From contig JAJPKL010000031.1 in the NCBI GenBank assembly GCA_021323705.1, forward strand, positions 1-41,809: 41,809 nt of DNA, written 5' to 3'. The notes beneath the pieces were generated by a model, which did not search any database, was not told the origin of the DNA, and saw nothing but the letters and a program-made list of their open reading frames with translations. This stretch comes from Nitrososphaerota archaeon. GTDB taxonomy: Archaea > Thermoproteota > Nitrososphaeria > Nitrososphaerales > Nitrosopumilaceae. The stretch's first letter is position 1, and every line of letters starts with the position of its first letter. A program made the position numbers and the translations under genes. Shown piece by piece: positions 13,464-16,845 of this stretch.

Positions 13464-14447
13464 TTATAGACTCCTCTTTACTACGAAATCTAGCAAGGAG
13501 AGTAAATCCTCTCTTGCAGAATTATCATACTTGGAAATAGATTTTCTTGCAGTATCCAAGTGGTAAGATGCCTTTTTTCTAATTGTATGCTCGATACCAA
13601 GAGTCGATATGGTCTCTACTGCCTTTCCAAGTTCACTCTTTGATATTGCCAAATTGCCAAACGCCTTGAGAATTGCTGTTTTCTCCTTTCCTTTTGCCAC
13701 CTTTATGGCTAAAAGGATTGGCAAGGATTTTTTTCCCTCACGGATGTCGTTTCCTACTGGCTTTTTTGTAATCCTGGGATCTCCAATTACACCAATCAGA
13801 TCATCAACTATTTGAAAAGCAATGCCTAGGTTTTTGCCGTAAATAGAAAGTCTGTTTACATCTGACTGTGTGGTGTTTGCAGAAATGGCTCCCATTGCGC
13901 AAGATGCCACAAATAAAGAAGATGTCTTTTTTTCTACCATCTTTCTATATTGCGATTCGGTAGGAATGGTCTTTGACTGGGCCATGCTTATGTCTAATGC
14001 CTGACCCTCACACACGTCTCTGCATGACTTTGAAAGTGCAACTACAAGTGAAAGACTCACTACTTTTGGGATTTGAATCTTAGAATTTGAAATAACCTCA
14101 AAGGCTTTCGAAAAAAGGAGGTCTCCTGCCAAGATTCCGACTGGAATGCCAAATTTCGTGTGTACGGTGGGCACACCATGCCTTACCTCATCGTTATCCA
14201 TTATGTCATCATGTACTAGTGTGAAATTATGCACCATCTCAATGGCTGCCGCTGCAGGAATTGCCTGATTTATTGAACCGCCTAAAAGCTCGCAACTTTT
14301 TATAACAAGATAAGGCCTGAGACGTTTTCCTCCGTGCTCTATTAGATAACTTGCAGCTTTGTAAAGATTGGAAGGCTCACCTTTGAGATTGGATAAAAGA
14401 AAAGAATCGATTCTCTTTGTGGTCTCTACAATTTTATCTAAATTCAT
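13464..14447 (-). CDS. idsA: Geranylgeranyl/polyprenyl diphosphate synthase
   Basis: Trans-prenyltransferase that condenses IPP with allylic diphosphates to make the C20 (GGPP) chains of archaeal ether lipids. The first aspartate-rich motif is HDDIMDND, the second VDDLIGVIGD, with GGKRLRPYL near the N-terminus. There is no large residue block directly before the first motif to dictate a short product, so chain length is inferred from context. The frame runs to 14531, but the ATG at 14447 forms an ATGA overlap with the IPP isomerase stop and gives a normal 327-residue enzyme. It belongs to the mevalonate/isoprenoid array. Confidence 0.94.
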   Translation of the reverse strand: MNLDKIVETTKRIDSFLLSNLKGEPSNLYKAASYLIEHGGKRLRPYLVIKSCELLGGSINQAIPAAAAIEMVHNFTLVHDDIMDNDEVRHGVPTVHTKFGIPVGILAGDLLFSKAFEVISNSKIQIPKVVSLSLVVALSKSCRDVCEGQALDISMAQSKTIPTESQYRKMVEKKTSSLFVASCAMGAISANTTQSDVNRLSIYGKNLGIAFQIVDDLIGVIGDPRITKKPVGNDIREGKKSLPILLAIKVAKGKEKTAILKAFGNLAISKSELGKAVETISTLGIEHTIRKKASYHLDTARKSISKYDNSAREDLLSLLDFVVKRSL

Positions 14448-15082
14448 TCCTTTTTCAACTCCCACTGATTGCTTGGAAAATGATATTTCAACGGAGATTC
14501 GAGACGATTTTTGATCCCATCCCGGTCCCACATTCTTAGAATTTTTTTATGAGATTCTGATATCTCATCCTTCGATTCGGAAAGAAAGTACAAAGCTACT
14601 AGCATCCAAGGGCAAAAAATTTGCGGTGATTTTTCAATTTCTGAGAATAACTCATCAAATGAAACCCATTTGATTGCAGAGATCTCATCTTCAACAAGTT
14701 TTATCTTGCTTGCATCATCTATTGTACCTATTAGGGTTCCACAGACTTCATTTTCGGAACCAACGTCTTTGTATGGAACATGGTATTCAAACTTGAACAA
14801 GTATTCAAGCTTGCATTTTATTCCAAGCTCTTCAGGCAGTCTTCTTTCCGCTGAAGAAACATATGTTTCAGACTGCCTAGGATGACTTGCAACAGTGCCA
14901 TCCCAGTCTCCAGGCCATAGCATCTTACTCATGCTTCTCTGTGTTAGCAAGAGCTTTCCCTCCTTATTGAATAACAAAATCGTAAATGCCCTGTGCAATT
15001 TTCCATGGGGGAGATGGCACTTTACCTTTTCCTCAGTTCCAATGGGTTTATCGTTACTGTCTACCAGAATCAAATATTCCAT
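14444..15082 (-). CDS. idi: Nudix-type isopentenyl-diphosphate isomerase (type I), atypical active site
   Basis: By sequence and context this is IPP:DMAPP isomerase type I, supplying DMAPP for GGPP synthesis. It keeps the Nudix fold and the metal-site residues: His23, His30, His67 in ASHP, and the Glu110/Glu112 pair in SENEVC. However, the catalytic cysteine (E. coli Cys67, human NTCCSHP) is Ala65 here: the segment reads WDGTVASHP. The protonating residue of the classical mechanism is therefore missing. It lies between isopentenyl phosphate kinase (5-base gap) and idsA (ATGA overlap), the place expected for an isomerase. An AGAGGA sequence nine bases before the ATG is a likely ribosome-binding site. 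It could instead be a Nudix hydrolase with a new role. Confidence 0.82.
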   Translation of the reverse strand: MEYLILVDSNDKPIGTEEKVKCHLPHGKLHRAFTILLFNKEGKLLLTQRSMSKMLWPGDWDGTVASHPRQSETYVSSAERRLPEELGIKCKLEYLFKFEYHVPYKDVGSENEVCGTLIGTIDDASKIKLVEDEISAIKWVSFDELFSEIEKSPQIFCPWMLVALYFLSESKDEISESHKKILRMWDRDGIKNRLESPLKYHFPSNQWELKKE

Positions 15083-15087
15083 GTTTG

Positions 15088-15828
15088 TTATCCTCTGAAT
15101 AATGTCCCTTCAAACTCCTTGCCCTTTATTGCGCTTACTATTCTTTGGGGAATCTTTCCATTGACAAAAAAGACATCTGTTCCGCTCTTGGACATGGCCA
15201 TGGCTTCTTTTATTTTACGGTTCATTCCTCCAGTCACGTCCATGTTTACATCTGTAATTGTAGGTTTTTCAGTAGTTATTTCTCGAATTAGTTTTCCGGT
15301 CTTGATGTCTGAGTATACTCCATCTACGTTTGTGACAAAAATTGCAAGACGCGGCTTGAGAATTTTAGTCAGCATTCCCATTATTTTGTCGCCAGAAAGT
15401 ATGTAGAATTTGTTCTTGCCAAACCACATCACATCACCATATGAGACTGGAACCAATCCAGTTCTGGCAATCTTTGGAATCTCTCTAATTTTTTTAATCA
15501 TCGGTTTGTCTCCAAAAATGAAATCTGTAGGAGGAAGACAGTATGGCCTAAGATCTGATTGAAGAAATGCCTCAAGGACTAGCTTGTTTAACTCCACCAT
15601 GGAATTCTTGACCACTGAGACGCCTTTGATGCTGTATCTGTCTGGCTTTGTGTGCATGTCATACTTGACAGACCAATAATGGCCAAAAGAACCTCCACCA
15701 TGAATTATCATGTATGGCTCCCTTACTCTTCTTAGATGTGTAGCAATTAGTCTAACTGCTGGCACATTTGCTGTCATGGGCCTCTGTTTGTTTGTAATTA
15801 TTGATCCTCCCAGTTTGATAAGAATCAT
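15088..15828 (-). CDS. ipk: Isopentenyl phosphate kinase
   Basis: Phosphorylates isopentenyl phosphate to IPP, the last step of the archaeal version of the mevalonate pathway. An amino acid kinase fold: LIKLGGSIIT at the start, the catalytic/substrate-binding His50 in GGGSFGHYW, the YGDVMW loop, and the nucleotide-binding NVDGVYSD segment. The 246-residue length is normal. A TTTTAAAA box centred about 28 bases upstream of the ATG suggests an internal promoter driving ipk-idi-idsA-gltX-fah separately from mvk. The phosphomevalonate dehydratase and decarboxylase that link mevalonate kinase to this enzyme in archaea are not in the window. Confidence 0.95.
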   Translation of the reverse strand: MILIKLGGSIITNKQRPMTANVPAVRLIATHLRRVREPYMIIHGGGSFGHYWSVKYDMHTKPDRYSIKGVSVVKNSMVELNKLVLEAFLQSDLRPYCLPPTDFIFGDKPMIKKIREIPKIARTGLVPVSYGDVMWFGKNKFYILSGDKIMGMLTKILKPRLAIFVTNVDGVYSDIKTGKLIREITTEKPTITDVNMDVTGGMNRKIKEAMAMSKSGTDVFFVNGKIPQRIVSAIKGKEFEGTLFRG

Positions 15829-15897: not shown

Positions 15898-16845
15898 CTA
15901 CAAGTAACGCAGTCCTTCATAGTCAATTTTTGCAACAAAACAATCACTGACTTTTTCCAAATTTTCAAGTGTTCCTACTACATTGGATTGGTCCACCAAC
16001 GAAATTATGCAACCACCTCCCCCAGCTCCAGTTATTTTAGCTCCGTATGACATCTTGGAAGCCATTTCTATTAGCCGATCAATCTTTTCTGTTGAGACAC
16101 TTATTTTCTCTAACATTTCTTGATTCTTTGACATTAGCAAACCAAGGTTACGTAAATCATTTCTTTTCAATGACAAGAGCGCATTTTCAACCAACTTGCT
16201 TTCCTGCTCACACATTTCAGAAAACAGTTTTTCATTTTTGTTTTTGAATTCTCTTACTCTTGAAACAACTTCTCTTGTATTGTGGACCTGTTTTGAATTT
16301 GCTATTATCAAACTCAAATTGTTTTTAAAATCGATCTTCTCCACCCCATCTTTACTGTAGGCTATCAATCCACCAAATGCTGACACGGATGAATCTGCAC
16401 CAGAGGCATCTTCAAATATTATCCGTTCTGATTCGATTGCTTTTTTTAGAATCTCTTCTTTTGATTTTTTTTCAAATAGGCCAGCAACAGATGCGGTTGC
16501 CGCAACGCATGCTGCAGACGACGAACCAAGTCCTATTCCGGCAGGGATTTCAGACTCTAGAACAATCTCCACTCCCTTTTCTTCGTTAAATTCCTTGAGT
16601 GTTTCTCTTGCTATGTATAAAAATAGTTTCATGAAACTAGTTATGGAACCAAGATTAGAAGAAGAATCTAGATCAAGTTCAACACTTCCTATCTCTGACC
16701 TTACGCGTATCTTTCTCTCATCTAATAGTTGGGATGTCGCAGTGATCCTCTTATCTATGGCACAAAGTATGGCCCGTACTCCATATACTACAAAATGCTC
16801 CCCAAAAAGAATGACCTTTCCTGGGGCTGATGCTACAGATTTCAT
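15898..16845 (-). CDS. mvk: Mevalonate kinase
   Basis: GHMP-family kinase making mevalonate 5-phosphate. The motifs in order are SAPGKVILFGEH (7-17), the ATP-binding PAGIGLGSSSA loop (101-111), the catalytic-Asp region GADSSVSAFGG (Asp151), and the C-terminal KITGAGGGGC motif. The 315-residue length fits archaeal enzymes. The start overlaps the MEMO stop by 4 bases, so translation is coupled. MEMO and mevalonate kinase are neighbours in many archaea, which has led to suggestions that MEMO is linked to isoprenoid metabolism. Confidence 0.95.
   Translation of the reverse strand: MKSVASAPGKVILFGEHFVVYGVRAILCAIDKRITATSQLLDERKIRVRSEIGSVELDLDSSSNLGSITSFMKLFLYIARETLKEFNEEKGVEIVLESEIPAGIGLGSSSAACVAATASVAGLFEKKSKEEILKKAIESERIIFEDASGADSSVSAFGGLIAYSKDGVEKIDFKNNLSLIIANSKQVHNTREVVSRVREFKNKNEKLFSEMCEQESKLVENALLSLKRNDLRNLGLLMSKNQEMLEKISVSTEKIDRLIEMASKMSYGAKITGAGGGGCIISLVDQSNVVGTLENLEKVSDCFVAKIDYEGLRYL

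Follow-up and report, generated by a model that had tools for sequence, protein, structure and literature searches.

Type I IPP isomerase is the standard case of acid/base catalysis acting on a double bond that is not activated, and its active-site cysteine is held to be essential. The enzymes are known for antarafacial chemistry, and both the C67A mutant of the E. coli enzyme and the C139A mutant of the yeast enzyme are inactive; an alanine in place of the cysteine is therefore expected to be fatal unless it is compensated. The same reaction is carried out by an unrelated protein, the type II (FMN) IPP isomerase (IDI-2; TIGR02151). Type I enzymes (IDI-1) in Thaumarchaeota are already known, and haloarchaeal type I enzymes probably read WDGTVASHP, as does the protein described here. 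The archaeal enzymes, from Thaumarchaeota and Haloarchaea, have been reported as transfers from bacteria (PMC3533463). Our search of the literature, largely of openly available papers, found no mention of a missing cysteine in the IDI-1 of Thaumarchaeota.

We analysed a stretch of 41,809 nucleotides (the window) in which a type I (Nudix) IPP isomerase of 212 residues without the catalytic cysteine is encoded, from an ATG start, at 14444..15082 of the minus strand. The protein scored above the curated cut-offs of both TIGR02150 (121.9 against 105.8 bits) and NF002995 (140.7 against 127 bits), and the type I enzymes of E. coli, Salmonella and human aligned with it over residues 2-163, with no gap in the motif region. 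An AlphaFold2 model generated with 29 family sequences had a mean pLDDT of 76, the first 29 residues being poorly predicted, and when the predicted model was compared with the PDB using Foldseek, ranks 1-15 were all type I IDI. Shared with E. coli Idi and human IDI1 (TIGR02150) are the Nudix fold, 30% identity, the metal ligands, the Lys/Arg diphosphate ligands and the RRx(L)xxE box. By alignment, the protein also keeps the equivalents of E. coli Glu116 (Glu112, a metal ligand and the acid/base residue; 14747..14749), Tyr104 (Tyr100; 14783..14785) and Trp161 (Trp159; 14606..14608), all on the minus strand, along with Lys19, Arg49, Lys53, Arg81 and Glu85. A preliminary description of this DNA had listed His23, His30, His67, Glu110 and Glu112 as retained, and this metal-site set of three His and two Glu was indeed found, in 131 of 131 family members. 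Unlike E. coli Idi and human IDI1, the window's protein has Ala for Cys67 and Asp-Gly for Thr-Asn at positions 61-62, and adds Cys157 and a C-terminal extension of about 45 residues (approximately 168-212; 14447..14581, minus strand, from alignment and model). The extension, in which Trp185 is invariant across the family, is present in the window's family, whereas E. coli Idi, the bacterial enzymes and the related proteins of another archaeal group (f56) lack it.

The segment WDGTVASHP aligns without gaps on WTNSVCGHP of E. coli Idi, which places Ala65 at the position of Cys67. Codon 65 reads GCA (14888..14890, minus strand), as had been described, and no shifted cysteine was found in the motif of the 212-residue protein. 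The alignment that had been proposed for judging whether the alanine is fixed gave Ala65 in 131 of 131 family rows (118 distinct sequences from independent assemblies), and takes in deeper-branching members, to 44-55% identity with the query. A sequencing error at codon 65 was therefore rejected, and the alanine is neither error nor chance. The motif was [VF]ASHP in 80 loci from named genomes, all Nitrososphaerota, and in the window's locus. Equally invariant (131/131) were His23, His30, Arg49, Lys53, Asp61, Ser66, His67, Arg81, Glu85, Tyr100, Glu110, Glu112, Cys114, Cys157 and Trp159; as judged from this invariance in the alignment, the remainder of the active site is under strong selection. 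Thus the absence of the cysteine noted in the preliminary description stands, and what it had presented as an oddity of one gene extends to a whole family, and in other archaeal groups the position is likewise Ala or Thr; neither of the explanations that could have removed it, a displaced cysteine or a misread codon, holds. The C67A mutant of E. coli Idi (PDB 1OW2/1Q54, 1HX3) reads SVAGHP and so has a laboratory-made alanine at the same place, whereas the alanine of the window's protein is natural, fixed and paired with Asp61. The protein belongs to a natural, fixed, cysteine-less form of type I isomerase that, judging by its context, is very probably functional.

Five bases upstream of the isomerase gene lies a gene for isopentenyl phosphate kinase (IPK; 15088..15828, minus strand; NF040647, 204.2 bits, cut-off 120), and beyond it one for mevalonate kinase (15898..16845, minus strand; TIGR00549, 223.4 bits, cut-off 163). 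On the other side is idsA, encoding a prenyl diphosphate synthase with DMAPP as starter (13464..14447, minus strand). The best model gave 303 bits for this synthase, which is under the strict cut-off, and the product is therefore described as GGPP-type with a provisional chain length. The ATG of idsA (at 14447) overlaps the stop codon of the isomerase gene in a 4-base ATGA, so the linkage to idsA and the 5-base distance from ipk given in the preliminary description were both accurate. The order mevalonate kinase, IPK, IDI and prenyl diphosphate synthase is near-universal in the family: of 100 loci scanned, 88 had IPK and 91 had the prenyl synthase, and eight of those that did not were distant relatives from outside the family. 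At two loci of one genus (L140 and L141, in genomes G300 and G072), IPK does not adjoin the isomerase gene, and mevalonate kinase is found upstream instead. The window's genome also encodes an AcnX protein, in keeping with the archaeal mevalonate route via phosphomevalonate dehydratase.

DMAPP is a building block of the membrane lipids of these ammonia-oxidising archaea, and the preliminary description had offered two options for its origin, namely that the protein is an isomerase in which another residue replaces the cysteine, or that DMAPP comes from a type II isomerase encoded elsewhere. The window's genome, which is 99.83% complete, contains one IDI-1. Its best match to TIGR02151 reached 20.3 bits, far from the cut-off at 281.3, and IspH, the other source of DMAPP, was absent from the same genome, so a type II isomerase or IspH elsewhere in it was rejected. 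The search for a type II enzyme (fni) that had been suggested was extended to a sample of 250 genomes of the phylum, each at least 90% complete. IDI-1 was present in all 43 genomes of the window's family in this sample, and IDI-2 was found in none of them and in none of 25 further ones (68 in total); family members lacking an IDI-1 match were every one less than 85% complete. The type II enzyme occupies the equivalent slot in sister families: six genomes of the same order from outside the family (f2 and f3) have IDI-2 (E<1e-90) and no IDI-1, and nearly all other groups in the sample likewise carry IDI-2 without IDI-1. Among 34 genomes picked mainly for having no IDI-1-like match, 30 had IDI-2. 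The other four were G320 (88% complete), G322 (70%), G347 (family f42), in which a cysteine-less IDI-1-like protein is present, and G181. In G181 (family f40, 97% complete), IDI-1 and IDI-2 were both not found.

In the window's genome and in every family genome tested, the Ala65 protein is the sole candidate for an isomerase of type I or type II. Because IDI-2 and IspH are absent and the gene sits with those for IPK and a GGPP synthase, it is very probably, on sequence evidence, the working IPP/DMAPP isomerase of the organism, a type I enzyme that would not use the classical cysteine. Genomic context favours this predicted activity, and the first of the two options is supported by the presence of IDI-1 without IDI-2, by the operon and by the invariant active site. 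The loss of a residue held essential in type I enzymes could alternatively indicate that the protein is not an isomerase and that a third, unknown type makes DMAPP in these archaea, since a non-homologous enzyme would be invisible to searches for IDI-1, IDI-2 and IspH. We regard this as improbable: loss of IDI-2 coincides with the Ala65 protein in every family genome tested, the operon is conserved, and the metal, diphosphate and Trp/Tyr residues that have been kept would be needless for a new function.

The box that characterises Nudix hydrolases is GX5EX7REUXEEXGU (PMC5389931). The window's protein departs from it, reading RRLPEELGI, with Arg81 where hydrolases have Glu. IDI-like Nudix hydrolases (YfcD, PRK15393) have the fold in common with it, and several of them have Asp at 61 and Ala or Gly at 65. 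The occurrence of this pair of residues in hydrolases, and the adjoining IPK gene, could suggest that the protein hydrolyses IPP/DMAPP and so balances the neighbouring kinase. However, the hydrolases carry Glu at 81 (REUxEE), and Tyr100 and Trp159 are usually absent from them, whereas the window's protein has RRLxEE as in isomerases and retains both aromatic residues; its score with the YfcD model was only 45 bits against a cut-off of 152, and the genome would be left without an isomerase. We therefore hold a hydrolase role to be highly improbable. In four other archaeal groups (f11, f13, f19 and f47), hydrolase-like Nudix proteins carry Glu81 and Ser114 but neither Tyr100 nor Trp159, and are found together with IDI-2.

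If the Ala65 protein is an isomerase, known type I chemistry suggests how most of its active site would operate. A divalent metal would be held by His23, His30, His67, Glu110 and Glu112, and the metal and basic residues would bind the diphosphate. With Trp159 shielding the cation, Glu112 and Tyr100 would together move a proton at one face of the double bond. At the opposite face, in a step particular to this family, Asp61 may do the job of Cys67, whether itself or through a water molecule that it polarises in the room made by the change from Cys to Ala. Codon 61 is GAT (14900..14902, minus strand), and the aspartate was found in 131 of 131 family members. Positions 61-62 are Thr/Ser/Ala-Asn in 12 cysteine-bearing bacterial enzymes; the cysteine-less archaeal candidates have Asp at 61, or Glu in the case of f42, followed by a residue other than Asn. 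In other Nudix enzymes, the residue after the equivalent Trp touches the substrate (Asn33 of MTH1, Gln44 of NUDT15), and by analogy with these contacts Asp61 probably points into the pocket. As one part of the reading of the protein as an isomerase, we tentatively propose that Asp61, or water that it holds, substitutes for Cys67. However, the link between an acid at 61 and a missing cysteine comes from some four or five lineages set against a small, plasmid-biased bacterial sample, and Asp61 is also present in Nudix hydrolases, so that it may have been inherited rather than acquired in place of the cysteine.

Two cysteines could also take the place of Cys67. Cys157 of the CPW sequence (14612..14614, minus strand), just before PW159, and Cys114 of ENExC (14741..14743, minus strand), two residues after Glu112, are both found in 131 of 131 family members. 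Nearly all Cys67-type enzymes have Ser or Thr at 157, and Cys at this position is confined to the window's family; Cys114, a variable position in cysteine-bearing enzymes, is present in all aligned cysteine-less candidates that lack IDI-2. Yet f56/f62, f55 and f42, which are likewise without Cys at 65, have Thr, Ser or Ala at 157, and E. coli also has a cysteine at the 114 position that does not rescue C67A. Replacement by either residue thus appears unlikely. A further alternative, which we consider somewhat unlikely, is that Ala65 is unreplaced and a single acid/base centre (Glu112 with Tyr100) works from one face, as in the flavin-dependent IDI-2. Glu112, Tyr100 and Trp159 are invariant, and residue 65 in the cysteine-less groups is Ala or Thr, never a good acid, all of which would fit; but such a mechanism leaves the conserved acid at 61 unexplained and clashes with the antarafacial chemistry of type I enzymes. 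Our ranking, which is a weak one, places Asp61 or its water first and Cys157 or Cys114 second, with the one-sided Glu112/Tyr100 mechanism as an equal rival. Type I catalysis is probably not confined to the textbook chemistry.

Cysteine-less proteins were also found in other archaeal groups. Those of f56 and f62 have the motif WDVS[YFV]TSHV, with Thr at 65; in six of the loci (L143-L148, in G311, G330, G345, G323, G317 and G338), Thr is at the cysteine site, SHV replaces SHP, and the genomes are without IDI-2. Some f55 genomes encode LDVSATTHV, and one f55 protein reads WDITMAGHP but has a hydrolase-like Glu at 81. No IDI-2 was found in ten genomes of f55, f56 and f62 in which IDI-1-like proteins are encoded. 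A more remotely related Nudix protein with the f42 motif WEFPASH (L183 and L195) is present in two genomes without IDI-2 (G192 and G347), and may be a further isomerase. Except for the protein with Glu81, the f56/f62, f55 and f42 proteins keep Tyr100, Glu-Asn-Glu-x-Cys and Trp159 and have no Glu at 81, and no type II enzyme was found in these genomes. In the flanking sequence read, the genes of the f56 proteins were not part of a mevalonate cluster, and the protein scores fell on both sides of the family cut-off; their function is therefore less secure than the one proposed for the window's protein.

In a tree from which the motif columns were excluded, the window's family formed a clade (support 100/99) that joined the cysteine-bearing bacterial enzymes (98/95), and in another tree, with hydrolases as outgroup, the cysteine-bearing enzymes grouped together (87/82); the trees contain a small, plasmid-derived bacterial sample, and haloarchaea are absent from them. 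With the motif columns excluded, monophyly of the cysteine-bearing enzymes was neither shown nor rejected (p-AU 0.43), and therefore either loss of the cysteine or a primitive lack of it would be compatible with the trees. It is conceivable, though we would not lean on it, that archaea without IDI-2 share a cysteine-independent class of type I enzymes with its own acid/base set (an acid at 61), arrived at in several lineages and possibly predating the cysteine chemistry of the E. coli, yeast and human enzymes.

If the proposed role is correct, a whole family of abundant ammonia-oxidising archaea makes all of its membrane lipids with a natural Ala version of the enzyme, and the reaction is possible without the cysteine. 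The family would then offer natural material for finding the substitute for the cysteine and plainly illustrate how one type of isomerase can take the place of the other, and annotation rules and inhibitor designs based on the cysteine would miss such enzymes.

No relatives were found in viral contigs, phage records gave bacterial-type and hydrolase matches only, and the matches listed in a plasmid search included only bacterial relatives. On conjugative E. coli plasmids, an IDI-like Nudix gene with the motif WSNISCTHP adjoins a class 1 isoprenoid biosynthesis gene and is annotated only as NUDIX (L161, CP056605.1). The idi annotation on a Neorhizobium plasmid (L155, CP030828.1) begins well inside the matching frame, and the protein as annotated appears to be cut short at the N terminus.
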